This document shows, piece after piece, positions 2,649-15,654 of a stretch of DNA of 55,030 bases. Position 1 is the first letter of the stretch. Each line of letters begins with the position of its first letter. The translations under genes and the position numbers were made by a program. This DNA is from Clostridia bacterium (GTDB lineage: Bacteria; Bacillota; Clostridia; RGIG6154), in contig JAGAJK010000076.1 in assembly GCA_017626145.1 (NCBI GenBank), positions 1 to 55,030 on the forward strand, written 5' to 3'. Under the pieces are notes generated by a model. It did not search any database. It was not told the DNA's origin and saw only the letters and a list, made by a program, of their open reading frames with translations.

Positions 2649-2858
2649 CTATAACATATCAACATTGTTTATCTTAACAACATCCTCAATCTGACAATTA
2701 AGAGCCTTACATATCTTGACGATGACAGTTAATGCTACTATCTCGTTTTTGTTGAGTTTTGTTAATGTAGTTGATGAGATATCTGCCATTTCCATCAAAT
2801 TATGTTTGCGAATATTCTTTTGTTTCAGAGTTTCCCACAGTTTTTCATATGATACCAT
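2649..2858 (-). CDS. small Xre/Cro-type helix-turn-helix regulator
   Basis: This 69-residue protein is almost entirely one Cro/CI-type HTH domain. LMEMADISSTTLTKLNK forms the turn region, and IVKICKALNCQIEDVVKI is the typical last helices. A TTG 15 bases upstream is in frame, but the GGAGG ribosome site lies within those bases, so the ATG at 2858 is the start. The promoter upstream has its -35 box inside an inverted repeat, which points to autoregulation. It reads toward the MBL hydrolase gene 26 bases away and may be cotranscribed with it. Its target genes cannot be deduced further. Confidence 0.85.
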   Translation of the reverse strand: MVSYEKLWETLKQKNIRKHNLMEMADISSTTLTKLNKNEIVALTVIVKICKALNCQIEDVVKINNVDML

Positions 2859-2887
2859 AGCAAAAACCTCCAATATTTTATATTTCT

Positions 2888-2916
2888 ATTATACACTTAT
2901 TCGTCGCAAAAATCAA
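2888..2916 (-). promoter_or_regulatory. sigma-A promoter of the HTH regulator
   Basis: TTGATT (2911-2916) and a perfect TATAAT (2888-2893) are separated by 17 bases on the minus strand. They lie just upstream of the GGAGG site of the HTH gene. Confidence 0.7.
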
Positions 2917-2933
2917 GACTTCACTTGATTTTT
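2908..2933. promoter_or_regulatory. inverted repeat over the -35 box (candidate operator)
   Basis: The two 10-base arms AAAAATCAAG and CTTGATTTTT are perfectly complementary around a 6-base centre, and the left arm covers the -35 box of the HTH gene. An Xre-type dimer bound here would block its own promoter. The A and T tracts also let it act as a short bidirectional terminator, so the operator reading is inference. Confidence 0.45.
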
Positions 2934-2957
2934 ATTGTTATTGATTTTTCAGAAAAA

Positions 2958-2987
2958 GGAAAAAAGGAAGCACCCGAAGGCACTTCC
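2958..2987 (-). terminator. rho-independent terminator of the Tad-like operon
   Basis: On the minus strand GGAAGTGCC, a TTCG loop and GGTGCTTCC form a 9-pair stem with two G-T pairs, followed by a T-rich tract. It ends the long minus-strand operon just after the last small reading frame. Confidence 0.75.
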
Positions 2988-2997
2988 CAAAAATCAA

Positions 2998-3207
2998 TTA
3001 TACATTTTCCCACAAGTCTTTCAAAAGCGAATTTCTTTTACTCTCATTAGCTTCAAGTGACTCTATGATGGTGTCTACGCCAATACCGTGAAAACTACAC
3101 TCACTTGATATGTGTCTGCTGATAATATCACCAACAGCTCTTTCATCAAGCATAAGCTGAACATTCCATCCGGAATATTTATAGCCCTCCCAATCGGTAA
3201 TATGCAC
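2998..3207 (-). CDS. hypothetical short ORF, possibly a frameshifted tail
   Basis: This frame gives 69 residues from a GTG. There is no Shine-Dalgarno sequence before that GTG and no other start. The same frame stays open about 50 bases further upstream, into the last codons of the neighbouring secreted-protein gene (up to a TGA near 3260). The peptide (EGYKYSGWNVQLMLDERAVG, then a charged helix ending KDLWENV) is protein-like but not recognised. It could be a real small gene, the remnant of a longer gene, or the displaced C-terminus of the 562-residue protein after an indel near 3245. It sits last in the Tad-like operon, directly before its terminator. Confidence 0.45.
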   Translation of the reverse strand: MHITDWEGYKYSGWNVQLMLDERAVGDIISRHISSECSFHGIGVDTIIESLEANESKRNSLLKDLWENV

Positions 3208-3241
3208 CGATGTGTCAACAGTCTGAGCATCATCAAGTATT

Positions 3242-4930
3242 TTAATACTCTTTTAAGAAGGAGTTGCCAATGTCACCTAAGCAGACAAGAAACTTACTAT
3301 TGTTAACCGCATAGGTAATCAAATCATATGTGTTAAAAATGGAACCAAAATATCCGGAATAGCCAGAAGCACCTGTCGCTCTTAATGTACCGTCGGGATT
3401 ATAGATATTATACCATAGTTCATAAATTCCGTCTCCCACGCCCATCCAACTTGCCGTAACGTATCTACCGTCCGGGAATTTGTTGGTCAAAGTTCTTCCA
3501 AACCATGCTTTGACATTTCCGCTGGAAATGGTTGTAAAGCTAGAAGTATTCCATGTACTATAACTAGAGAAATATCCGTTCTGTCCGCTATGCGCAGAAG
3601 ACTGAATTCTTAACTCTTTGTCAGTTCCTATTGTTTTATTGCCGGATGAATCAAAAGTGATTTCATTAATTACCTGCCAATAATAATAACTGCTGTTTGA
3701 TGGATCCTGCTTGTAGATATAGCTTGTGCCATTGCATGAGCGAATAATCGCATAATGACCATTGTATGTACACGGATAAACATAGCTATTATACTTTGAT
3801 GTATCTAACTGTAATCCGCAAATAGTTCCGTCACGAGCAATTACCGCATAATGTCCAAATGTTACCGATGGGACAGGCAATCCTTTACTTGTATAGTAGC
3901 TTGCATCAATCCCAACAATTTTTTGAGGAGTAAAAGTTGACGACGTGTTCTTCGTAGGAATCGTCTGCGACTTCACCTTCGTCATATTTCCTTTATCTGA
4001 TTTGTAAATTGTTAGGTTCAGGTAGTAATAATACCTGTTATCTGTACTGTCAAGAGTTCTTGTTGTTCCCATTGTGAAAAACAAGTTATCACTGTCAGGG
4101 ATCTGATAATATGAAGGCATACTCATGTTTGATGCAAATCCCTCTGTATACATAGAATATCCATTTGCCGTTGTCATTTCTGCAATACTATGTCTTACAG
4201 CAGTTCCTTGTGACAAAGTTCCGCTTTTAAATATCATCGGTGTAGAGTTACTTGCCTTAGTTGAACCGTCTGACATATAGTAATACCTCGTACTTGAGCT
4301 ACTTCTATATGCATTTTGTCCTCTGTATAGAATTTTATCCTTTATAAAAGGATAGCCCTCACATCCGTACTCCGCATTACTACTCATTTTGTAAATATAA
4401 CCTTTATCAGTTATAAAGAAGTACTCATCATACTCATCATAGTTAGAGTTTGTATACTTACCTTGTGGATTTAAAATGTAGCAAGGTTTTTCAGAGCCTA
4501 TATTTTTATAATATGATGCGTCAATTTTTGAAGAAATATCCGCAAAGCTAAAACCTCTGTCCCAATAGTATTCTTCACCTGCTGAACTTTTACTGATAAT
4601 TATAAAACTATCTTCAGTAGTATACAGTATGAAAAAATCATGATAAGAAGTTTTAGTTTTACCACTATAACCGCCATCGGTGATTTTTTCTGTACATATA
4701 GCCAGATAGTAGTTGCTGCCCACTTGCGGTAACGGATAGAGCTGCAATATATTTTGGTCTAACGCTTTATATATTGTCATATCATCCGCTGTAATACCGC
4801 AGGTAATACTAGGAGATTGAGTCCACACCTCATATTCTGCGTTTGTTACACCAGGGTTTGGTGCAACAGCATAAGCAACTGTGCCTGTTAACATACATAT
4901 GCACAGTAAAAGTGCAAATAGTTTTTTCAC
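3242..4930 (-). CDS. secreted Tyr/Ser-rich protein of unknown function
   Basis: The protein has about 562 residues with a clear signal peptide (MKKLFALLLCICMLTG, then a V-A-Y-A cleavage region) and no later membrane segment. The mature part is rich in Tyr, Ser, Thr and Asn and repeats short strands ending in aromatic pairs (Y-Y-Y, Y-Y-W). This resembles a beta-propeller or other all-beta extracellular fold, but no family was recognised. A GTG 9 bases upstream (4939) is an alternative start. The GTG at 4930 was preferred because it gives a normal signal peptide and follows a GGTGAT ribosome site. It is the most distal long gene of the Tad-like operon, so it may be an exported substrate or surface component. 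Confidence 0.75.
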   Translation of the reverse strand: MKKLFALLLCICMLTGTVAYAVAPNPGVTNAEYEVWTQSPSITCGITADDMTIYKALDQNILQLYPLPQVGSNYYLAICTEKITDGGYSGKTKTSYHDFFILYTTEDSFIIISKSSAGEEYYWDRGFSFADISSKIDASYYKNIGSEKPCYILNPQGKYTNSNYDEYDEYFFITDKGYIYKMSSNAEYGCEGYPFIKDKILYRGQNAYRSSSSTRYYYMSDGSTKASNSTPMIFKSGTLSQGTAVRHSIAEMTTANGYSMYTEGFASNMSMPSYYQIPDSDNLFFTMGTTRTLDSTDNRYYYYLNLTIYKSDKGNMTKVKSQTIPTKNTSSTFTPQKIVGIDASYYTSKGLPVPSVTFGHYAVIARDGTICGLQLDTSKYNSYVYPCTYNGHYAIIRSCNGTSYIYKQDPSNSSYYYWQVINEITFDSSGNKTIGTDKELRIQSSAHSGQNGYFSSYSTWNTSSFTTISSGNVKAWFGRTLTNKFPDGRYVTASWMGVGDGIYELWYNIYNPDGTLRATGASGYSGYFGSIFNTYDLITYAVNNSKFLVCLGDIGNSFLKEY

Positions 4931-4931
4931 A

Positions 4932-5471
4932 TTAATCACCAGCCTTCTTCAATTCCTGATATCGTTCATTCTGGATAAGCTCTTTAAGGGCCTCATCATC
5001 ATTTACAGGAGATTCAATACCGATTCGTTTTAAATAACAATACATATTGCTGTAAACTACCGGTTCCTTTGAATATTCTCCGTCTGCTAATGAATCAAAA
5101 GCTTCCTCTATCGAGTGTTTACCCACAATGTTATAATAACCATTTTCCATCATTGGAATAATTCCTATGCCTGCGGCAGTAGGATTCTGATCTGCACCGT
5201 GAGTCTCAATAAACGAACGGCAGCTTGCCTCATCTTCAAAAAGAATAAGATAGGCTTTTTTGATATCCATATCCCTGCCTATTCTTTCTCTGTACTGACG
5301 CATATCTTCTGCCGTTATTTCAATATCCTTGATACTCTCTAATTTAATCTCTCCCTCTGAGGGACGATTGCATACCAAACAGATTGTAACTATAAGTGCT
5401 ACAACCAATAAAAGTGCACCGGCAATCATAAGCCACTGCTTTTTACTTAAAGATTTGATTTTATTTAACAT
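4932..5471 (-). CDS. membrane-anchored protein with a parvulin-like domain
   Basis: This 179-residue protein has one N-terminal membrane helix at about residues 14-34 (LMIAGALLLVVALIVTICLV) and an extracytoplasmic domain. The segments KKAYLILFEDEASCRSF, EAFDSLADGEYSKEPVVYSN and YCYLKRI follow the order of parvulin peptidyl-prolyl isomerases (PrsA/SurA type): first strand, then the hydrophobic-A-F-x-L-x-x-G-E-x-S block, then the closing strand. The usual catalytic residues are not obvious, so it may be a degenerate chaperone fold. It overlaps the Big2 protein gene by 11 bases and lies just before the secreted protein gene. That placement suggests a helper for exported proteins. The domain call is by pattern only. 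Confidence 0.65.
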   Translation of the reverse strand: MLNKIKSLSKKQWLMIAGALLLVVALIVTICLVCNRPSEGEIKLESIKDIEITAEDMRQYRERIGRDMDIKKAYLILFEDEASCRSFIETHGADQNPTAAGIGIIPMMENGYYNIVGKHSIEEAFDSLADGEYSKEPVVYSNMYCYLKRIGIESPVNDDEALKELIQNERYQELKKAGD

Positions 5472-6981
5472 TTACATTACCTCGTATATTCAATTTATAT
5501 TTCAGGTTTTTACCAAGAGCATTGCCGTGTATATCACAAAGAGTTCCTTTAATGCAGATATATACATCACCTTCAGGCCAGAACTCTGCAGGTGCAACAA
5601 TAATCTTTTTACCCTCTGTTTTAACTGAAAGCTTTATCCGTTCTCCATTCCCTGCAGCATCAGCAGTTGCGAAGATACTATTCATAGCCGAATAAGCACT
5701 CAAATCTGTATCAAAATACATTTCTATATTTCTTGTATTCATAAGATTATAAGCTCCGCCGACCTGAATAAAATGACCTTCGCTATAGACTGCATTGAAC
5801 TTATATTCACCTACCGTCTTCTGATTAGATGAATACGCCTTTACAGTTATTTCACCACCGTCAGTTATGGTAAGAAGTCCGTTTTGATTGATTGTTGCAC
5901 CGCCGGACACTTTCCAGATAATATCTGTCTCCGTTGTATCTTCAGGATAAAGCGATGCAGTGAATAAAACATTATTTCCTGTTTCATAAACCGCATTTTC
6001 CTGAGGGGTAACATTAATTCGGTCCGGATACTTCACATAATCAGTTACAACAATGGTTACACTGTCCCTTTTTGAAGAATTGGTTGTTGATGTTGCGTAA
6101 ATGGTACAGGAACCTTTCCTAACACCCGTTACCTTACCGTTACTGTCAACTGTTGCAATACGCTTGTTTGAGCTTCTCCATGTTACTTTTTTATTTGCTG
6201 AACTGGGTGAAACTTTGATACCAAGCTGAACAGTGGTGGTTTCCATTACCTCGAATTTATTTGCTAGGATTTCATCATCGTAGGTAATATAAATACTTCT
6301 GAGTGTGGAATCATAGTCATCGTCATCCTCATACTCATCTGAAACATATACCCTGACGGATGCAGTTGCACCGCCATCTTCCGACTCAAGGGTAATGGTT
6401 GTATTACCGCTTCTTTTAGCATAAACATAACCTCTGTCATCAACGGTCGCAACAGATGTATTTGAACTTTTGAAATTCACATTATGATTTGTTGCGTTAT
6501 CCGGTGAAACAGAATATACAATGCGCTCGCTTTCGTATCTTTCAAGGTAAAGTGTTCTGTTTTCTACAGTAATTTTATTTACCTTAACAGTCTCTCCGTC
6601 CGGCTTATCTTCTTCGCCTCCCGGCGTATCAACACCGGGTTTTTCTTCTTCAGGAGTCTTATTAGATACTGTCACCTGCACACTATCCTGAATTTCTGTT
6701 CCGCTTACTCTAACGGTGATATTTGCAACACCTTCGCTATTGGCAATCAGTGTACCGATTGCTGCGGTCACAACATCGGGATTATCGGACTCATACTCAA
6801 GCACAGGATTTGCATTTGTGGGAGTAACAGAGATAATCATTTTCTGCGTTTCTCCCGGTTTCATCGTAGCTGATGTAATACCTATCTTAATGCTCTGTAC
6901 CTCTGCATCTTCAGCAAACACAGTTAAAGCCGTTAAAAGAAGTGCTGCAGTCAGAACAATAGAAATAATACGTTTCATCAT
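5461..6981 (-). CDS. secreted protein with multiple Big2 (bacterial Ig-like) domains
   Basis: This 506-residue exported protein starts with a signal peptide (MMKRIISIVLTAALLLTALT, cleavage after V-F-A). Three or four Big2-type domains follow at about residues 30-106, 133-212, 225-312 and 315-390. Each carries the typical P-x-x-A-x-x-x-V-x-x-x-S-S/D-N and S-V-A-T-V-D or I-A-T-V-D, G, V-x-x-x-x-x-G elements. The C-terminal 100 residues resemble a Big5/SbsA-type Ig-like domain (N-x-x-M-Y-F-D-T-D-L, then G-D-V-Y-I-C-I-K-G). A Pro/Glu/Gly-rich linker separates domains 1 and 2. No sortase motif or membrane anchor is visible. Such proteins usually form extracellular stalks or adhesins, and here it probably depends on the surrounding Tad-like operon. 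Confidence 0.88.
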   Translation of the reverse strand: MMKRIISIVLTAALLLTALTVFAEDAEVQSIKIGITSATMKPGETQKMIISVTPTNANPVLEYESDNPDVVTAAIGTLIANSEGVANITVRVSGTEIQDSVQVTVSNKTPEEEKPGVDTPGGEEDKPDGETVKVNKITVENRTLYLERYESERIVYSVSPDNATNHNVNFKSSNTSVATVDDRGYVYAKRSGNTTITLESEDGGATASVRVYVSDEYEDDDDYDSTLRSIYITYDDEILANKFEVMETTTVQLGIKVSPSSANKKVTWRSSNKRIATVDSNGKVTGVRKGSCTIYATSTTNSSKRDSVTIVVTDYVKYPDRINVTPQENAVYETGNNVLFTASLYPEDTTETDIIWKVSGGATINQNGLLTITDGGEITVKAYSSNQKTVGEYKFNAVYSEGHFIQVGGAYNLMNTRNIEMYFDTDLSAYSAMNSIFATADAAGNGERIKLSVKTEGKKIIVAPAEFWPEGDVYICIKGTLCDIHGNALGKNLKYKLNIRGNVNVK

Positions 6982-7473
6982 TTAAGCACCTCTTTCCCAG
7001 ATTGAATTGATTTCGCCGTCTACTAAAAGAAAGACTTTGAAACGGTTATCGGCATTCATGTTATTATACATCTGCCTTGTTTTTTCAAGATAAGCAAGGC
7101 GGGTATGATACGGAACGATTTCTTTTGTCATATCCTCTACCTTACATATATACCGCCAATAGGCTGCGTCTGCATCCTGATATGTTCTTTCGTACTTCGT
7201 ATATCCACCTACAAGAGCTATATTTCGATAGATACGAAAATAACATACAGGCTCAAAAGTCGCCTTGCATCCTGAAAGGCCACCGATAATTTTAAATAAG
7301 TTTAGTTCTCTTTTTAAGGTATCGTCAAATACCTTATCGGTATTAAAAGCAAGCTTGCCGGTATCAATTTCAGATAATGTCAGTGGATTTGATAGGGATG
7401 CATAGAATTTATCAATCGCGGAAATATCAATGTAATCCTCCTGTGTGACCACAAATCTATCCTTATATGACAT
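6982..7473 (-). CDS. hypothetical protein of the Tad-like operon
   Basis: This 163-residue soluble protein has no signal peptide or membrane helix, and I do not recognise a family. It is rich in Tyr, Asp and Lys with a central hydrophobic part (YFRIYRNIALVGGY) and a helical C-terminal half. It sits directly between the truncated TadC-like gene and the Big2 protein gene, ending one base before the latter starts. The ribosome site is weak, so translation may be coupled to the upstream gene. It occupies the place where the missing C-terminal half of TadC would be expected, but its sequence does not resemble that domain. Confidence 0.65.
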   Translation of the reverse strand: MSYKDRFVVTQEDYIDISAIDKFYASLSNPLTLSEIDTGKLAFNTDKVFDDTLKRELNLFKIIGGLSGCKATFEPVCYFRIYRNIALVGGYTKYERTYQDADAAYWRYICKVEDMTKEIVPYHTRLAYLEKTRQMYNNMNADNRFKVFLLVDGEINSIWERGA

Positions 7474-7475
7474 TG

Positions 7476-8003
7476 CTACATTTGATAGGTCTCTAAAAGT
7501 TTAATAATATCTTTTTCTGTCCTGAGGCCCTGAACTATAGCTCTTATGAACTTTGGAAGTTCTGCCTCGATCAATTTGTCCTTTGCTTTCAGCTTGTCTT
7601 TAATTTCACCATGGAAATGGAAATACACAACCACACCGAGTACAACTGCTACAAGGCTCATACTCTTAACAGTAAGCACCAGCATAATATATGTTATTGC
7701 TGTTGCTAACACTGCCATAACAATCGACCTTGCATAGTACTCTTTAGGAGTAAGCGGAATGCCCGCTCTTCTCAGTTGTTTCTCCATGCGTTTTTCCTTG
7801 TATTCCGCTATCATCATAAACGGTGAAACAATCTTTACAATCGGCATTACAACCACAGTCAAAAGTGAGTCTAGGAGGGACTGTTGACTTTTGACCGCGG
7901 TTTTAACACCTTTAGCAGTAGCAATCGGAGGCAATCCCAATGCCTCCGAGGAAACTATAAACAAACCGCCTGCAAGGGCTATAAAAATAAGAAAATAAAT
8001 CAT
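7476..8003 (-). CDS. TadC-like type II/IV secretion system F protein, C-terminally truncated
   Basis: The 175 residues correspond to the N-terminal half of a TadC-type inner-membrane platform protein. There is one N-terminal helix and a pair of helices at about residues 90-130. A cytoplasmic stretch LPKFIRAIVQGLRTEKDI follows, where the T2SSF domain should begin, and a TAG stop comes 12 residues later. Normal TadB/TadC proteins have about 300 residues. Reading beyond the TAG in the same frame gives nothing T2SSF-like, so this is not simple readthrough. It has a good GGAGG site and lies 11 bases after tadB. The gene is probably a broken partner of the neighbouring TadB-like protein. Confidence 0.7.
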   Translation of the reverse strand: MIYFLIFIALAGGLFIVSSEALGLPPIATAKGVKTAVKSQQSLLDSLLTVVVMPIVKIVSPFMMIAEYKEKRMEKQLRRAGIPLTPKEYYARSIVMAVLATAITYIMLVLTVKSMSLVAVVLGVVVYFHFHGEIKDKLKAKDKLIEAELPKFIRAIVQGLRTEKDIIKLLETYQM

Positions 8004-8014
8004 TTACATCCTCC

Positions 8015-8920
8015 TTAAAGCGGTTTATTTACCTTGAGTGTGATAAAAGCTGAGATTACCGTCATAATCAGCATCAGAATGATAAGTATCTTTCCAACTG
8101 CTGAACCGACTAAAATATCAAACCACGTTGCATTAGACCACTTTAGTAGCGGAATGATAGAAAACGAAAGAATTACGGAGGTGAAGTAATCTCTCCACAC
8201 AGCCATCATAACTGTGTCCGCTTCTATTTGCAGTCTTTTTGCATCGTTCATGGATTGAACAACTGCCGGTAATATAAAACGGTAATCTCCTGATTTTTCC
8301 TGAGCGAGAACCAAAATATCAATCCATTCGGAAAAATATTTGTTTTTGATTTTTACTTCAAGCTTCATCAGTGCTCTTTTAATGTTTGAGTCGATGAGGG
8401 TTACATCCGTCACAAACTCAGCAAATGGTTTTGGGGAATCTAGCTTGTCAAGGTTTTCATTAACAGCCTTAATAATGTCATTACAACCTAAATAACTGTT
8501 TGTTATAAGGTTCATAGAACTTTCAAGCTGTTCATCTCTGTTTCTTATGTACCATCTGGCTCTTACCTTGAACACGATATACGGCATCGGGAGAACCGCA
8601 AACCCTGTGGCAATGGCCAGAAGATTATCAGAGAACAAGAACTTACCAAGTCCGATTCCTGCAAACATTGAGAGAGCAACCGCAAACCAAAAGGTATTCA
8701 TTTTGAATCCGCTCATCTCAACAGTGTCTTTTATTCCTATGTATATCTTTTCGGTCAGGCTAAGCTTTGAGAATTTTTCATCTACATGTTTACGCTTATC
8801 CTTCGCGGTTGCTTTAGAAATTGATACGATGTTCTTCTTTTTCGGCAGCTTTACACCGAAAATAAAAAAGCCCCCTAAAGCAAGGAGCACGAACACGATA
8901 AAACATATAATATTTTGCAA
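8015..8920 (-). CDS. TadB-like type II secretion system F family protein
   Basis: This 301-residue integral membrane protein has an N-terminal helix, two adjacent helices at about residues 75-115 and two more in the last 70 residues. Between them lies a cytoplasmic T2SSF domain with NIKRALMKLEVKIKN, then F-S-E-W-I-D-I-L-V-L-A-Q-E-K-S-G-D. That block corresponds to the conserved surface of platform proteins that couples to the CpaF/TadA ATPase. The start is a TTG behind a GGAGGTGG ribosome site. It lies between the CpaF and truncated TadC genes, the usual tad order. It would form the membrane platform of a Flp-type pilus or related export machine. Confidence 0.82.
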   Translation of the reverse strand: MQNIICFIVFVLLALGGFFIFGVKLPKKKNIVSISKATAKDKRKHVDEKFSKLSLTEKIYIGIKDTVEMSGFKMNTFWFAVALSMFAGIGLGKFLFSDNLLAIATGFAVLPMPYIVFKVRARWYIRNRDEQLESSMNLITNSYLGCNDIIKAVNENLDKLDSPKPFAEFVTDVTLIDSNIKRALMKLEVKIKNKYFSEWIDILVLAQEKSGDYRFILPAVVQSMNDAKRLQIEADTVMMAVWRDYFTSVILSFSIIPLLKWSNATWFDILVGSAVGKILIILMLIMTVISAFITLKVNKPL

Positions 8921-8937
8921 TTGGTACCACCTCCATA

Positions 8938-9696
8938 TTACATGAACGCCTCAAGCATTTCGTTCGAGGCACCGCCATATTTAAGTCTTTCAAGAAGTGA
9001 CTCCGACATACGGTTCTTTCTGCAGTGTTTACCTACAACCTTAACTATGTTTCCGTCTTCATCGTAGATATTTTCCTGAATCTCATATTTATACAAGGTC
9101 TTACCTACGATTCTTCCGTTTTCAACCTTTAATCCTTCAAAGATTTCATCATAGACACGTCGTCCGTCAGGGAGCTGTCTTTTAAACAACACCAGAGGCA
9201 TCGCTTCTAATATGAATTCAAGCAGTTTGCTTTCTGAAAGTCTTACACCGGTTGAAACACACATGGAAAGAATTCGGTTATATGCATCAAGTGCGGAGTT
9301 TGCATGCAGGGTACTTATGATGGTGTGTCCCGTTCTACCTGCTTCAACGGCAGTTAAAGCTTCACCGCCACGCATTTCTGCAGGTATAATTACATCAGGA
9401 TGGAAACGAAGTGACTTCTTCAACAGGTCATCCATGGTAACAGGATTTACACCGTCTTTTGTAACTGTCTGAACAACGCGATTTTCCATAATGCCTTTTT
9501 CGTTTATCTTTGCAATGTTAAGCTCTCTGGTATCTTCAATCGTGTAGACACGCTTCTTAACATCAAGACACTCAATCAAATAACTAAGGTCTGTTGTTTT
9601 ACCGGATCGTAGAACCTGCAATAGCAAGCGAAACACCGTTATTAACACACAGAGAAAGGAAATCAAGTTGCTCCGGGATGGCACTTCCGTATTCAA
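8938..9696 (-). pseudogene. CpaF/TadA secretion ATPase, C-terminal fragment after frameshift
   Basis: This frame carries the C-terminal part of a CpaF-type ATPase. It starts within Walker A (S-G-K-T-T-D), then shows the Asp-box segment YTIEDTRELNI, the R-F-H-P-D-V-I-I-P-A-E-M-R-G block (Walker B) and GHTIISTLHANSALDAYNR with the catalytic His. The roughly 33 residues before S-G-K-T do not match the family; they are an out-of-frame overlap with the upstream fragment. True homology begins near 9600. Inserting two bases at 9603-9605 would join both fragments into one 458-residue protein of normal length. Confidence 0.75.
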
Positions 9697-10312
9697 TCAT
9701 AAGTTCTCTTGTAATAACATTTTTCTTCTGCCTTCTGATTGATGCAACACCGCCTGTTTTCTTATCTACACAAGGCGGAATGATTGCAGAAATACGAATA
9801 CCTTCACCGATGAAACTATCAACTGTAGGAGCAGAACCGTCAACGATACTACCACCAAGCCATACCATTTTCTTTATCTTGTCCATACAGTCGTCAGGAT
9901 TGATAAATGTCTGGTCTAAAGTCTCTATCCTGTCAGGATAAATAACCTCAATGCTGTTCCAAGCATTAACGTTGATTTCTTCAACGGTCGGCTCGGTAAT
10001 ATACTTTGACAAAATACCGAAGCCCGCCATATCCTCATAAATCTTATCTGCCAGATCTGAAATGCTGTCGCATTCAGGAACAGACATTTTGTTCTGGTTA
10101 AGATATCTTACAATGAGGTTTTTAAGTTTTTCCTTCGCCTCTTCAGAATACATAACATTGATAAGTTCTGCCGAGTGATTCGTAGAGATTACATGACGGA
10201 TAGTATCAAGGACTTCCTTATATGTACGCTCCTTACGGTTATCAGTGTTTTCACTTTTCTGCCCTGCATTCAGTTTATATATGAGGTCATTAATATTAAA
10301 TACTTCTACCAT
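9599..10312 (-). pseudogene. CpaF/TadA secretion ATPase, N-terminal fragment ending at Walker A
   Basis: These 237 residues match the N-terminal and linker domains of CpaF. They include YEDMAGFGILSKYITEP and V-E-E-I-N-V-N, which precede the arginine-rich core (G-I-R-I-S-A-I-I-P-P, then S-I-R-R-Q), and they end with VSLAIAGSTIR and a TAA. Family members continue G-S-T-G-S-G-K-T-T. Here the DNA reads acg atc cgg taa instead of acg gga tcc ggt aaa, a net loss of two bases. The P-loop is therefore destroyed and the motor of the operon is inactive unless this is a sequencing error. The start has a good GGAGG site, 6 bases after the ParA-like gene. Confidence 0.78.
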
Positions 10313-10318
10313 TTTTCA

Positions 10319-11041
10319 TCAACCTCCTAACATTACCTGACTTGCAAGTTTTTGAATTGTTTTTTTATAATGTCCGTTTGCTAATTTACTGTTATAAATA
10401 AGCTTGCCGGAATTGGTCAAAGTCGAACAATTTGAAACAAATGGCAGTTCAAAATCAGGCTTTGTGTCAAGCGCATTTAAGAACGCCATCTTATCACAGC
10501 TTTTATCATAAGCATTTATGACTGTGATTGTTTTACTTCTTATATGAATCAGATCTGTCAGATTTTCCATAGCTTTATGCCACACACAATCCTTAGCGCA
10601 AACCTTATATACTCTTACAATCTTGTTCGACATTGTAAGACCGATGCTTGAAACAGGGTTATTCAGTTCCTCGCTGCCATCTATAATTATGTAATCAAAG
10701 CGGATTGTACTGTCTTCTATCAGTTCCTTAACCGTCTCTGCTGATATTGCTGTAAGGAGCATTCCGTCAAAGACATTTGGAGGTGATAGAATAAATAAAT
10801 TCGGATTATCCGTCGCCTCAAACATATTTTTTGTATTACATCCATTTGAGATGGCCTTATATATCCCCTTTTCAGGTTCAACTCTCTTTCCGAAAATACC
10901 CTGAAGTTCGCCATAAGAAAGTTTAGAAGAGATTATTCCAACCATAAGGTCTCTGTCAGCTAATGCCGCGGCAAGATTTGCGGCAACTGTTGTTTTACCA
11001 CTTCCGTTGGCACCCCAGACTGTTACGATTTTTGCGTTCAT
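10319..11041 (-). CDS. ParA/MinD-like P-loop ATPase of the Tad-like operon
   Basis: This 240-residue protein has a Walker A at the very N-terminus (WGANGSGKTTVAANLAAAL, about residues 9-27), a deviant form of the KGGxGKT motif of ParA/MinD. A Walker B-like strand F-D-Y-I-I-I-D-G-S-E lies near residue 131. In tad operons such ATPases (TadZ/CpaE or its partner) localise the assembly apparatus; on plasmids related proteins segregate DNA. Its start overlaps the end of the CpaB-like gene by 4 bases (ATGA), a sign of coupled translation. Given the RepA-type initiator and the direct-repeat array nearby, a partition role is a possible alternative, but the operon position favours pilus localisation. 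Confidence 0.78.
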   Translation of the reverse strand: MNAKIVTVWGANGSGKTTVAANLAAALADRDLMVGIISSKLSYGELQGIFGKRVEPEKGIYKAISNGCNTKNMFEATDNPNLFILSPPNVFDGMLLTAISAETVKELIEDSTIRFDYIIIDGSEELNNPVSSIGLTMSNKIVRVYKVCAKDCVWHKAMENLTDLIHIRSKTITVINAYDKSCDKMAFLNALDTKPDFELPFVSNCSTLTNSGKLIYNSKLANGHYKKTIQKLASQVMLGG

Positions 11042-11697
11042 TTCACAGCACCTCTCTTAACAAATACTGCATGGACTTTACCAGAATACTCTGCCTGAAT
11101 AAGCTTTTCTGCCTGAACCTGATTTGCGATAAGGGTTACTGTTGAAGCAAGATGTTCTGCCTCTTCATTATTTTCAACATCTTCAAGTTTTTCAGCATTT
11201 TCATTTTCAATGCTATAGACCTCAAGTGCTTTTAATTCCTCATACACAACAACGGCATCATTTGCATATCCAACGATAGAAATAATATCTCCGGATTTTA
11301 AATGATTACCAACAGCTGATGCAACAGAATCTAATGATACAGTAACAAGCATATTGCCCTGGCTCATAACCTTATCAAGTTTTTGGTTTGCAGCATAGTC
11401 AGAAAGCTTTGACGAAAGGATTAAATCATCAGGAGTAATGTCGCAGGATGCGTATTTACCAACGATTTTATCCTTGTCTTTTATAATACTCTGAGGTAAT
11501 CCGTAGCTTCCAACCTCTTTTTCTACAAGCATTGATTCCTCAATCTTCGTTCCTTCAGCAACAGCATTTTTCACCGCATAAATCTTTTCGGTATTACTTT
11601 TACTCTTACTTATTGAAGGAAGAAAAAAGAATGCCAGGATTGCTGCTATAACAATACAAATAACTCCAACTACAATTTTGTTTTGAAATATCTTCAT
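11038..11697 (-). CDS. CpaB/RcpC-like protein with SAF domain
   Basis: This 219-residue protein has one N-terminal membrane helix (VVGVICIVIAAILAFFFL). A SAF-type domain at about residues 40-100 contains AEGTKIEESMLVEKEVG and I-V-G-K-Y-A-S-C-D-I-T-P-D-D-L-I-L. The C-terminal part has V-T-V-S-L-D-S-V-A-S-A-V-G and a G-D-I-I-S-I-V-G strand, as in the RcpC/CpaB family. These proteins sit at the cell envelope and are thought to stabilise or gate the Flp pilus channel. It overlaps both neighbours by 4 bases, so the four genes around it form one translational unit. Confidence 0.8.
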   Translation of the reverse strand: MKIFQNKIVVGVICIVIAAILAFFFLPSISKSKSNTEKIYAVKNAVAEGTKIEESMLVEKEVGSYGLPQSIIKDKDKIVGKYASCDITPDDLILSSKLSDYAANQKLDKVMSQGNMLVTVSLDSVASAVGNHLKSGDIISIVGYANDAVVVYEELKALEVYSIENENAEKLEDVENNEEAEHLASTVTLIANQVQAEKLIQAEYSGKVHAVFVKRGAVK

Positions 11698-12812
11698 TTA
11701 TCCTCGTCCTTTCTGAGAGCTTCTAATATATGCTCCCTGTAATCATCTTCCCGGCTATAGAAGTTACCCTCCGGAAAGAGCTTTTTAACTCTCTCCGGAT
11801 TTCCGGCAATAATGAATAAGTATGAATTATCAAACAGGCTTTTCCATGTGTCATTAATGAAGAAAAAATTTATCTTCTGAATGTTCCAAGGATCCGAAAA
11901 GCCCATTATCAACTTAATATCACATCCGTTAAAACTCTGTATCGTTTCCGGCTTATACTGACTCATCAGTTTGAAGTTCGCTCCATCCGGCGAAACTTCA
12001 ATCGGCGTACCAAAATCAATAACCGTAACATTATACTTTGACTTTAAATCTTCTATATTAAAGTCTTCAACATAAATGTCTATGTTTTTCAATTTCATCA
12101 TCCGGACAGCACCGGTAGATGACATATCTGCAATACATGTCTTGTAATTATGCATTGCTAAATATCTGGCAAGATTTCCTGCGGTCCAGGTTGCACCCGC
12201 CCCTCGCGCCGCATTAAACACACCGATGGTAAAATGTCCTTGCGGTTCTGAAAAAGATTTAGCGTCAGTAAATTCTTCCTTTGGAGAAGGTTTTTCCTTC
12301 TTCTCCGAGAATTTAAAAAGCCTCCTTTCTTCCTTAGGAGGCTCCATATATTCTTCGGGAATCGGAATGTCGTCAATGTCTCCGACAAATCCGCTGCCCC
12401 TTCTTTTTTCCTTAAAGTCCTTATTGGAAAGTTTGCCTTTTCTAAGGATTTCAACAAGTTCATCAGAATCAAATCCATCATCATCAAATATCAGGTCAAG
12501 CTTCATATCCCAATATTCATTAATTTGACTTCTCAAAAATGATGTCCTTGCACCGTTAAGTATCAGAACCACACGAAGATGTTCTGTATACACACGAAGT
12601 TCCTCAACATACTCTCTGATGATGTCCATATTCATTGCATGAGAATAAATAACAACTGCGTCAACCTCTTTGCTTCTTGCTTCAACCTGTGTTGTAAGCT
12701 GAACTGAAGTTGTACAGTTGTCTTCAATAAAGAATATATCATTGGCCTGAAGTTTCTTCTTTAATATATTTTGAAGATCCATTTCTCCAAATAAAGTTAA
12801 TACACAAATCAA
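11694..12812 (-). CDS. CpaE/TadZ-like protein with degenerate P-loop
   Basis: This 372-residue protein has an N-terminal receiver-like domain (about 1-120, with A-V-V-I-Y-S-H), an acidic and Lys-rich linker (about 130-190) and a MinD/ParA-like domain. At the Walker A position it reads FNAARGAGATWTAGNLARYL, with no lysine before the final T. A-G-A-T replaces G-K-T, so ATP hydrolysis is doubtful. The layout is that of CpaE/TadZ, which marks the pole or site of pilus assembly. The start is a TTG that overlaps the toxin gene stop by 4 bases and has a GGAGG site 10 bases upstream. Confidence 0.75.
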   Translation of the reverse strand: MICVLTLFGEMDLQNILKKKLQANDIFFIEDNCTTSVQLTTQVEARSKEVDAVVIYSHAMNMDIIREYVEELRVYTEHLRVVLILNGARTSFLRSQINEYWDMKLDLIFDDDGFDSDELVEILRKGKLSNKDFKEKRRGSGFVGDIDDIPIPEEYMEPPKEERRLFKFSEKKEKPSPKEEFTDAKSFSEPQGHFTIGVFNAARGAGATWTAGNLARYLAMHNYKTCIADMSSTGAVRMMKLKNIDIYVEDFNIEDLKSKYNVTVIDFGTPIEVSPDGANFKLMSQYKPETIQSFNGCDIKLIMGFSDPWNIQKINFFFINDTWKSLFDNSYLFIIAGNPERVKKLFPEGNFYSREDDYREHILEALRKDEDK

Positions 12813-13198
12813 TTTACTTCCACCTCCGTTAAGTAATCAACAGGAGTTTCTGCAACCCTGTCAAGATGTTCTATAAGTTTCAGTGCGTGTTCCAAAGCCT
12901 GTTCTGTATCACGCTTGTCTCTTTTAATAAAAGCATTTAAAAGGATAACATTTTCATCTATATTATAGAATATAATACGAACCATCGTTCCGGCTGCTTT
13001 TAATCTAAGTTCGTACAGCCGTTTATATTTCTCAATTGAAAAATGCTTTACATAAGGTTCTTTGAACTGATTTCTTTCATCTGCTATATACCGCAGAATA
13101 AAATCAAACTTCTTTCTTATTTTTATATTAGAAGCTTTAATGAATGTATCAACTTGTCCTTTGGCGCCTTCATTTTTATACATAAATATCTTTCTCAC
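12809..13198 (-). CDS. RelE/ParE-type (HigB/Gp49-like) toxin-like protein
   Basis: This 129-residue basic protein has the beta-strand/helix pattern of the phage Gp49-like/HigB branch of RelE toxins. The core is YKRLYELRLKAAGTMVRIIF, then E-N-V-I-L-L-N-A-F-I-K-R-D, then a C-terminal helix. Such proteins are normally ribosome-dependent mRNases or gyrase inhibitors paired with an HTH antitoxin. No antitoxin gene is adjacent. It is the first gene of the Tad-like operon and overlaps the CpaE-like gene by 4 bases. The GTG at 13198 is chosen because AAAGGAAAGGTGAAG lies at the right distance; the next ATG is too far. Whether it is still a toxin is unknown. Confidence 0.75.
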   Translation of the reverse strand: MRKIFMYKNEGAKGQVDTFIKASNIKIRKKFDFILRYIADERNQFKEPYVKHFSIEKYKRLYELRLKAAGTMVRIIFYNIDENVILLNAFIKRDKRDTEQALEHALKLIEHLDRVAETPVDYLTEVEVN

Positions 13199-13229
13199 AA
13201 AAAATCTTCACCTTTCCTTTCATAGGTAT

Positions 13230-13266
13230 AAAAAAAGAAGCAAAATCAATAAATTGATCTGCTTCT
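13230..13266 (-). terminator. terminator or attenuator ahead of the toxin-Tad operon
   Basis: On the minus strand GAAGCA-G-ATCAA, loop TTTA and TTGAT-TT-TGCTTC form a stem followed by seven or more T. It ends transcripts from the repA side. It also lies about 23 bases after the start point predicted for the operon promoter at 13297-13325, so it may act as an attenuator. Confidence 0.75.
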
Positions 13267-13296
13267 CTTGCGTCAATATACATTTTTCATGATACT

Positions 13297-13325
13297 ATTA
13301 TAACACATTAATAATTTCACTTCAA
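13297..13325 (-). promoter_or_regulatory. promoter of the toxin-Tad operon
   Basis: On the minus strand TTGAAG (13320-13325) and a perfect TATAAT (13297-13302) are 17 bases apart. The -35 box lies in the first unit of the 11-bp repeat array. Confidence 0.6.
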
Positions 13326-13450
13326 TAGCAAATCAGTACCAATTTAATACCAATTTAATTTCAAATCAATTCCAACTTAGTTCCAAATTAATTTCAACAT
13401 AATTCCAAATTAATTTCAACTTAATTCCAAATCAGTTTCAGATCAATTTC
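13319..13450. repeat. array of twelve 11-bp direct repeats
   Basis: Twelve back-to-back 11-base units run without gaps. Examples are AAATCAGTACC, AATTTAATTTC, AAATCAATTCC, AACTTAGTTCC and AAATTAATTTC; the consensus is close to AAATTAATTYC. The unit length is one helical turn, so every copy faces the same side of DNA. The array begins at the stop codon of the gene at 13449 and reaches the -35 box of the Tad operon promoter. Both strands contain stops, so it is not coding. It resembles plasmid iterons or centromere repeats such as the 11-bp ParR sites of plasmid R1. Confidence 0.85.
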
Positions 13451-13985
13451 ACTTAGTTAAAAATTCATTAAGAATTGGCAAACACTCCTTAGATGTAAAG
13501 CCCCACAGAATATCACTTAAACTCTCGATAGCTTTTTTTCTCTGTCTGAAGTATGAGGTCCATGACATATACTCCTCAACCATGCCATTTATACTATCAA
13601 TAATCAATTCTGTGCTTTTACACGGTTTTTCAGACAAGTATGTATAGTATAAAATCCAATAATATGTCTCTCCATTAGTATGTCTGGTCCTCAAAACATT
13701 TAATGCAGTTTCTATTATCTTGAGCATCTTTTTGTTCCGCTCTAACGTTCTCGTCTGCTCCTGAATTTGTGTTCCGGATACATCCATACCGGCAGCATAA
13801 GACATTTCCAAAAATTCTTCAAGTTTACAATCCATTTCCAGCTCAAAACTTATCTGAGCTTGAATTGCTGATACTTCAATGCTCCATACAACATCACGAT
13901 ACTTTTTCAAAAGCATCTCTGTATTATGATACAAATACTCCTCTCTTGACATTTTAACATCTGCTTTTTTCTTATTATCTTTCAT
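13449..13985 (-). CDS. hypothetical protein downstream of repA (ArpU/sigma-like?)
   Basis: This 178-residue, highly charged helical protein has no signal peptide. The C-terminal third (YYWILYYTYLSEKPCKSTEL, then S-W-T-S-Y-F-R-Q-R-K-K-A-I-E-S-L-S-D-I-L-W-G) resembles the sigma-70 region-4-like end of phage ArpU/DUF1492-type regulators. The N-terminal two thirds look like a coiled bundle. The family link is weak and made by eye. An AAAGGAG site precedes the ATG. It lies 14 bases after repA and ends where the 11-bp repeats begin. It may therefore be a replication accessory, partition or regulatory protein that binds those repeats. That role is inference only. Confidence 0.65.
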   Translation of the reverse strand: MKDNKKKADVKMSREEYLYHNTEMLLKKYRDVVWSIEVSAIQAQISFELEMDCKLEEFLEMSYAAGMDVSGTQIQEQTRTLERNKKMLKIIETALNVLRTRHTNGETYYWILYYTYLSEKPCKSTELIIDSINGMVEEYMSWTSYFRQRKKAIESLSDILWGFTSKECLPILNEFLTK

Positions 13986-13999
13986 GACTTATGCTCCTT

Positions 14000-15052
14000 T
14001 CAAATATTTCCATACATGTCGTGGTTTACTTCTGCTCTGTAATAGTGATCTATTGTTGAAATTGAATTATATAAAGATGTTAGCAAGTAGCTGTCTATAT
14101 TGTGAACCTTGGTTAGATTTTTCTTCATACAGTCTAAAACATATTCAACATGGCTGTAATCAAGTTTAAGCAGTACACTCTTAACAACCATCTGAGGTAT
14201 TTGTTCTGACTTGATGACTAAATAATCCTTTTTGCTGCAAATTGCATCCAACATTATATTAACTACACCCGTAGCTTCGCTTTCACCGTAATTCTTTGCA
14301 AGAAATTCGTATTCAATGTTTTCACAAATAAGTTCTCTATATTTTTCGCGTTCTCTTATCTCATCCATCACATCTTTTTTTCTTGGTGTTACTCCGTGTT
14401 GATAAGATAAGATAGGATGGATCTCACTAAAATCAGTATTATTATTTTTATTATTATTAAAATCATTATTATTTACTTCGGTTTTTGCGAAGTTTGGACT
14501 TCGGTTTTCCAGAAGTGCTGACTTCTGTATTTCCGGAAGTCCTGACTTCGGTTTTTCAGAAGTCTTGACTTCGGCATTTGTAGAAGTCTTGACTTCGGCA
14601 TTTATAGAAGTCTTGACTTCGGCGGATTCTTGAGCTTTGTTTTCATCAAGATTGGAAGGATCATAATCACCATTTTCAGGACACTCTATGTTAGAAACAA
14701 AATTCATTACATAAATCAGCGTAGGTTTCCCAAGTCCCTGTTTCTTTTTCTTTATAAGTCCGCAGCCTTTCTCATCATCAAGCTCAGCAAAAAGCTTGAC
14801 TCCTTTATCCTTTCCTATACGCATATACTCCATTACTTCCTCTAAAGTGAAATAAATATATACATGATTCTTTTCATCTATCCAACCATTCTTAACTGAC
14901 AATCCCATCCTGTCGAGCATAAGGCCATACAAAATTTTTGCATCAGAAGATAACCCAATAAATCTTTCATCTGAAAAAAGTAATTTGGGTATTCTAAAAA
15001 AAGTAAATTGATTTGCTTCGTGTCCGTAAAAATAATCCATTTGGTAATTCAT
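14000..15052 (-). CDS. repA: RepA_N-family replication initiator
   Basis: This 350-residue protein begins with the RepA_N signature (FFRIPKLLFSDERFIGLSSD, then A-K-I-L-Y-G-L-M-L-D-R-M-G-L-S, about residues 18-52). That winged-helix DNA-binding domain is shared by initiators of theta-replicating Firmicutes plasmids and many integrative elements. A low-complexity linker at about 140-200 (N-A-E-V-K-T-S repeated, ending in an Asn run) is followed by a C-terminal domain. The linker DNA holds an iteron-like array, as expected because RepA_N origins usually lie inside the gene. It has an AGGAGG site and a terminator only 30 bases upstream. This shows a plasmid or integrated-element origin for the region. 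Confidence 0.88.
   Translation of the reverse strand: MNYQMDYFYGHEANQFTFFRIPKLLFSDERFIGLSSDAKILYGLMLDRMGLSVKNGWIDEKNHVYIYFTLEEVMEYMRIGKDKGVKLFAELDDEKGCGLIKKKKQGLGKPTLIYVMNFVSNIECPENGDYDPSNLDENKAQESAEVKTSINAEVKTSTNAEVKTSEKPKSGLPEIQKSALLENRSPNFAKTEVNNNDFNNNKNNNTDFSEIHPILSYQHGVTPRKKDVMDEIREREKYRELICENIEYEFLAKNYGESEATGVVNIMLDAICSKKDYLVIKSEQIPQMVVKSVLLKLDYSHVEYVLDCMKKNLTKVHNIDSYLLTSLYNSISTIDHYYRAEVNHDMYGNI
14489..14622. repeat. iteron-like array inside repA
   Basis: Six copies of a 16-base motif with consensus GAAGTCTTGACTTCGG start at 14489, 14512, 14536, 14559, 14583 and 14607, spaced 23 or 24 bases. Each core is an inverted repeat (GAAGTC, 2 bases, GACTTC). The copies fall in different reading frames of the gene, so the DNA motif, not the peptide, is what is conserved. 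In RepA_N replicons this is the expected place of the origin. Confidence 0.8.
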
Positions 15053-15083
15053 GAAAATAATCCCTCCTCATCTGTTATTAGGT

Positions 15084-15117
15084 AAAAAAAAGCAGACTAT
15101 AGAAATCTATAGTCTGC
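15084..15117 (-). terminator. strong terminator just upstream of repA
   Basis: The 11-base arms GCAGACTATAG and CTATAGTCTGC are perfect around AAAT. On the minus strand they are followed by eight T. Only about 30 bases separate it from the repA start, which leaves no room for a promoter. RepA synthesis must therefore depend on readthrough or antitermination here. Confidence 0.8.
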
Positions 15118-15177
15118 CAAAAAAACATACTTGTTTTTTATTTTATTGCAAGCGTATAATCTTCATATCACTCACAA

Positions 15178-15285
15178 TTAGTATTTACGATAAATACCTA
15201 CCACCTTTCGAAATCGAGTTGTTTCGTGCTTTTTTCAAAGCATTGAAGAGCGAACTACAACTCCGCAAACCCGCATAAATACTAA
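15178..15285 (-). ncRNA. candidate structured leader RNA upstream of repA
   Basis: On the minus strand TTAGTATTTA (15276-15285) pairs perfectly with TAAATACTAA (15178-15187). Nested inside are GAGTTGT pairing with ACAACTC and a TGCTTT-GAAA-AAAGCA hairpin. The 3' strand can instead form a local GTATTTA-TCG-TAAATAC hairpin, so two states exclude each other. The terminator at 15084-15117 follows. No known RNA family was recognised. The remaining bases to 15330 show no open gene. Confidence 0.4.
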
Positions 15286-15330
15286 GGTTTCGTCTTTGGT
15301 CCCTAATGTCCAGTGTTCAGGGTTTAAAGT

Positions 15331-15549
15331 TTATTTGAAGACATCTTTTATCAGGTAACAGGCTTGTTCGTAATCTTTTTTACAGACATAAATTTTATAT
15401 TCCGGTTGAGCAGTACATAACCCTTTAACGAAATTTATGCTGTAGTCAATGTTGTTTGCCGACAGAATATCTCTTATTTTTGCTTGAGCAGTCATATCGT
15501 ATGTAATTACCAACTGTTTTCTGTTAAATATAGTTATCACTTTTCTCAT
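15331..15549 (-). CDS. small DUF2007-like putative signal-transducing protein
   Basis: This 72-residue protein has the short alpha/beta pattern of DUF2007: a first strand (VITIFNRKQLVITYD), a helix (A-Q-A-K-I-R-D-I-L-S-A-N-N-I-D-Y) and a last strand plus helix (YKIYVCKKDYEQACYLI). These proteins look like small ligand-binding domains related to PII, but their function is unknown. The frame is open further upstream, but the best promoter (15626-15654) overlaps that part, so the ATG at 15549 with AAGGAG close by is the start. It reads toward the structured leader and repA and may be the first gene of that transcript. Confidence 0.6.
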   Translation of the reverse strand: MRKVITIFNRKQLVITYDMTAQAKIRDILSANNIDYSINFVKGLCTAQPEYKIYVCKKDYEQACYLIKDVFK

Positions 15550-15625
15550 TTTCTCCTTCAGCATAACAAGTATGAAATACCCGGTAGTTCTGTGCCGCCT
15601 TTTTAAACTAAACATCTTTGTGCTC

Positions 15626-15654
15626 ATTTTATCATAAACATAAATTTTTTGCAA
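15626..15654 (-). promoter_or_regulatory. promoter of the DUF2007-like gene
   Basis: TTGCAA (15649-15654) and TAAAAT (15626-15631) lie 17 bases apart on the minus strand, about 70 bases before the chosen ATG. Confidence 0.5.

Follow-up and report, generated by a model that had tools for sequence, protein, structure and literature searches.

The non-coding DNA ahead of the replication gene repA is, in the reading that we consider somewhat probable, a terminator-gated leader, off by default, at the attachment end of an integrative element of the RepA_N type. The window, i.e., the whole 55,030-nt stretch analysed, would then contain the end of an element that integrated immediately after a host ORF. 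In this outer non-coding end, an attachment-core-like DNA motif would be joined to a leader that is transcribed and closed by a terminator before repA. Transcription would arrive from the flanking chromosome or, in the circular form, from the opposite end of the element, and most of it would be halted at the terminator, so that repA would be off or low by default and made from read-through only. The purpose of this arrangement would be to keep RepA low.

The gene repA (14000..15052, minus strand) encodes a replication initiator with a RepA_N domain at the N-terminus, for which the Pfam match is above the cut-off (PF06970, E=1e-28), and a DUF6017 domain at the C-terminus (PF19481, E=2e-32). It also holds six 24-nt repeats (14483-14624) resembling iterons, and iterons located within the rep gene are a trait of the RepA_N family. 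The leader ends in an intrinsic terminator (15084..15118, minus strand; ~-17 kcal/mol), consisting of a 12-bp stem (15118-15091) followed by eight T residues, with the T-run extending to 15084. The repA ATG (15052) is located 31 nt past the end of this run, and the first-pass annotation was right in describing a strong terminator so close before repA that no promoter could fit between the two. A scan of the minus strand from 15330 to 15052 revealed no sigma70-like promoter, and no hexamers of a promoter overlapping the terminator were found by eye or by scan. Terminator-like patterns appear twice in 1.2 kb versus 0.4 times expected, the terminator forms with a probability of ~1 in ensembles of the full-length leader, and the pairing of its stem is preserved in homologues by means of G-U changes. 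This terminator, which would be active in vivo, probably keeps repA quiet. Upstream of the leader, an ORF of 107 aa without a Pfam match (15331..15654, minus strand) could be the source of the transcript, which would enter the leader directly. A weak promoter-like site is found at 15654-15626, and no terminator-like site was detected between the ORF and position 15321.

The position of the terminator is not peculiar to this locus. With one scanning rule for both gene sets and start codons assigned heuristically, an intrinsic terminator was found within 150 nt before the start of 27 out of 45 clostridial RepA_N genes versus 4 out of 98 other ORFs from the same loci (Fisher p=3e-13), a comparison in which many of the 45 loci are mutually related and the ordinary genes often have no long upstream intergenic region. 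In most of the 27 cases, 16-34 nt separate the end of the T-run from the predicted start, and the terminators involved fall into several groups without sequence relationship to one another. A terminator also precedes the RepA_N gene in circular plasmids of Anaerococcus, Aerococcus, and Monoglobus, which speaks against shielding from chromosomal transcription as its sole role. In several RepA_N plasmids of staphylococci, a hairpin over the ribosome-binding site is found instead, in agreement with the translational control known for them (PMC5703833). A broader proposition would be that clostridial RepA_N elements in general control replication by termination directly before rep, a layout on which unrelated leaders have converged, and that, in the leader family of the window, termination is relieved only in a particular state, such as circularisation or the binding of a factor; both parts taken together, we consider it unlikely.

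The leader itself, of ~240 nt, has been found at ten further loci, all of them in Clostridia metagenome-assembled genomes (MAGs) of several GTDB families, with an identity to the window of ~80%. When 391 genomes were searched at the DNA level, six further loci from different families were obtained at ~80% identity, while a gapped-pattern scan of GTDB contigs yielded ten Clostridia MAG loci, six of which are contigs already found; the remaining pattern matches, from unrelated phyla, were attributed to chance and left out of the homologue set. A covariance-model search of the 391 Clostridia-class genomes returned seven strong matches, and the weak remainder, where inspected, corresponded to the core-like motif described below or to a terminator. 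All homologues are MAG contigs, several of which break off within the leader or in the first part of the element, and their effective diversity is of about four sequence clusters. The leader is rarer than RepA, relatives of which appear in 38 of 148 related genomes, and searches of viral contigs, plasmids, and phages did not detect it. The absence of a matching RNA family, already noted from the sequence alone, agrees with an Rfam search at the gathering and E-value thresholds, which detected no family in the window or in the leader homologues (best sub-threshold score, 23.8 vs 100 bits).

The 202-nt stretch that includes the terminator folds strongly (z = -5.4, with none of 200 shuffles as good), owing largely to the terminator and its adjoining hairpins; the fold of the 108-nt region alone is barely above shuffles (z = -2.0, equalled by 3 of 200). 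On the minus strand, a hairpin AAAAACA-AGTA-TGTTTTT (15121..15138), directly before the terminator, is identical in each of the nine sequences extending that far. Further upstream, a GAGTTG/CAACTC stem carries an apical hairpin (15216..15263), the apical part of which is rebuilt from other bases in homologues, with two-sided changes at 4 of the 11 pairs of the apical helix (A-U to U-A or U-G, G-C to U-A). The conservation of ~240 nt, the presence of several hairpins, and the covariation of the apical one would suit a conditional attenuator, in which the leader responds to an antisense RNA, to a protein such as RepA, or to the movement of ribosomes, and the terminator is released or enforced to control copy number, as in pT181 or pIP501. 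This possibility is also favoured by the fact that circular replicons, which need no chromosomal insulation, have a terminator before rep as well. We nevertheless regard it as rather doubtful, given that antiterminator pairing is no better than chance. The best upstream duplex with the 5' arm of the terminator reaches -9.8 kcal/mol, versus ~-17 kcal/mol for the terminator itself, and no antiterminator is evident because 31% of shuffles equal it. The plus-strand TATAAT at ~15157, where an antisense RNA might start, has a weak consensus and, on inspection of the alignment, is not kept in homologues. A candidate leader peptide, MVGIYRK... (GTG GTA GGT ATT TAT CGT AAA ...), shows only invariant codons and stops that differ among homologues. 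The stems proposed by the first-pass annotation are without support.

The outer limit of the leader is abrupt. Conservation at the element end begins with CCTGAACACTG (15311..15321, minus strand), which is preceded in the homologues by a T-tract plus ~3 variable bases and, before these, by unrelated DNA. Mean pairwise identity among the 11 loci is 25-26% (chance) beyond -20, 71% at -10..-3 (the T-tract), 32% at -3..0, and 100% at 0..11 from CCTGAACACTG. The upstream genes, where readable, vary by locus, with the exception of L072 and L082, which have one in common. Since the leader starts abruptly at CCTGAACACTG with unrelated upstream DNA everywhere, the conserved leader, as read from these alignments, is the outer end of a mobile element inserted in the chromosomes of gut bacteria. 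A Tn916-like T-rich target was also considered because of the T-tract. The first gene behind this leader and terminator is a different one in L071 and L072. L071 and L063 are one contig from two data sets, and in the latter the alternative first gene, with internal repeats different from those of repA, is followed by a remnant of the 3' part of repA; the region L063:6866-8100 comprises a collapsed copy with the leader, an alternative rep-like gene, the repA 3' remnant, and then a second core-like motif, AAACCC-AGTAACGATGC-GGGGTT.

The core-like motif of the window, AAACCTT-AGTATTTATGC-GGGTTTG (15265..15290, minus strand), is composed of inverted arms and a conserved spacer. The sequence AAACC(C)-AGTATTTATGC-GGGTTT recurs after guaA in L042, L056, and L162, and we read it, from the places where it occurs, as putative attachment-core-like DNA. 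The copy at lysS (L061) has both arms altered (AAAGCC/GGCTTT), another one follows tRNA-Ser in L059, and the motif is also found upstream of or beside Pfam-confirmed tyrosine integrases in L164, L059/L090, and L099. Some copies are accompanied by direct repeats resembling arm sites. The 3' ends of guaA and lysS are documented targets of tyrosine-integrase ICEs in streptococci, and RepA_N genes are frequent in ICEs (PMC4701971). In L068, lysS is followed by a related element with RepA_N and Tad genes, in which repA comes after a core-like site, three TTTACACCAATT repeats, and a terminator. As the motif lies ~30 nt inside the conserved boundary, it is not the junction used at these loci. Only one copy is present in the window when up to 3 mismatches are allowed, with no second core as a direct repeat, and the far end may lie off the contig. 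The element integrated behind guaA in L162 also encodes a pemK RNA (RF02913; L162:2303-2360).

These data could also be explained at the DNA level only, if the conservation were due to a recombinase or a replication protein, the hairpins were inverted-repeat binding sites, and the terminator belonged to the previous gene. The core-like motif beside integrases and at known integration sites, the abrupt boundary of the element, and invariant blocks such as TTTCGAAAGGTGGTAGGTATTTATCGTAAATA would all fit, but the pairing of the apical hairpin is maintained with different bases and a terminator occupies a fixed place ahead of rep in several unrelated loci, which makes this explanation quite unlikely.

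The first-pass annotation had proposed that a 108-nt region forms a closed multi-stem structure, the 3' strand of which could form a local hairpin instead, in an architecture expected for copy-number control by attenuation. The elements named do exist on the minus strand: TTAGTATTTA (15285-15276), TAAATACTAA (15187-15178), GAGTTGT/ACAACTC, a GAAA-capped hairpin TGCTTT-GAAA-AAAGCA, and the local hairpin GTATTTA-TCG-TAAATAC (15181..15197), where TATTTATCGTAAATA is invariant across the homologue alignment. The sequence TTAGTATTTA, taken as the 5' arm, is indeed present, but it had been overlooked that it is part of the attachment-core-like motif at the end of the integrated element. When the leader is folded over its full 238 nt, the probability of the outer stem is ~0.07 for the window sequence and ~0 for three homologues; that of the local hairpin is ~0.8 for the window sequence and <=0.15 for the three homologues. 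In a ten-sequence alignment, two of the ten positions of the outer stem are broken in most homologues (pair 38-144 in 7 of 9, pair 40-142 in 6 of 10). Six to seven of its pairs are invariant, the two-sided changes of this stem are single cells, and the GAGTTG/CAACTC stem shows zero compensatory changes. Hence, the covariation check supports the apical hairpin, and neither the outer nor the inner stem. A switch in which attenuation is set by the outer stem versus the local hairpin is highly improbable, even though the complementarity is present in the window and the whole helix set exceeds shuffles and slid controls in cells paired (a control that leaves relatedness in, with most two-sided cells coming from the apical hairpin), since the outer stem is little populated, two of its pairs are broken and its inner six show no variation, and none of the stems contacts the arms of the terminator. 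What stands of the proposed layout is the terminator directly before repA, as in rep genes controlled by termination.

With regard to the gene content of the element, conjugative elements of gut Firmicutes commonly carry RepA_N genes. Behind repA, the element (2650-15321) has Tad/Flp-pilus-like genes (CpaB, CpaF, TadB/C-like, and ParA-like), and L068 and L062 have a similar set behind repA. Among the element genes visible in the window (2650-15321), neither conjugation genes nor a recombinase gene were seen. The cpaF/tadA gene (8938-10312) is broken into two reading frames, and this split is attributed to a frameshift or an assembly error because its counterparts in L068 share a single frame. 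The genes for LOG and beta-CASP proteins at 415-2628 were rejected as the far end of the element as they look chromosomal, and the other end was located neither in the window nor by an empty-site approach with a congeneric genome.

In layout, the leader resembles those of pT181 and pIP501, plasmids controlled by antisense RNA attenuation, in which an intrinsic terminator at the end of a long leader closely precedes the rep ribosome-binding site (PMC5703833). Contrary to them, no conserved antisense promoter and no pre-emptor or antiterminator pairing were found in the leader of the window, and the Rep family is different (RepA_N). The RNAI control of pSK41-type RepA_N plasmids from Staphylococcus shares with the window the initiator domain and a structured leader before rep. 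However, the pSK41 hairpin acts on translation, which it blocks by covering the ribosome-binding site (PMC5703833), whereas the terminator of the window leaves 31 nt to the ATG and stops well short of the ribosome-binding site, and no hairpin sequestering this site was found in the leader. The core-like motif resembles the ends of tyrosine-integrase ICEs at the 3' ends of guaA, lysS, and tRNA genes, and in L068 the terminator and repA are close behind such an end; in contrast to those ends, the conserved boundary here follows a T-tract at varied host loci and is situated ~30 nt outward of the motif.

According to a review of these plasmids, RNA systems similar to that of pSK41 do not appear in RepA_N plasmids of genera other than Staphylococcus, and the control of RepA_N expression is undescribed outside staphylococcal plasmids (PMC5703833). 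The terminator fixed before rep in many unrelated loci suggests a simple and testable rule, namely that replication of the element depends on read-through. This dependence would tie replication to the integration state of the element or to the level of transcription.
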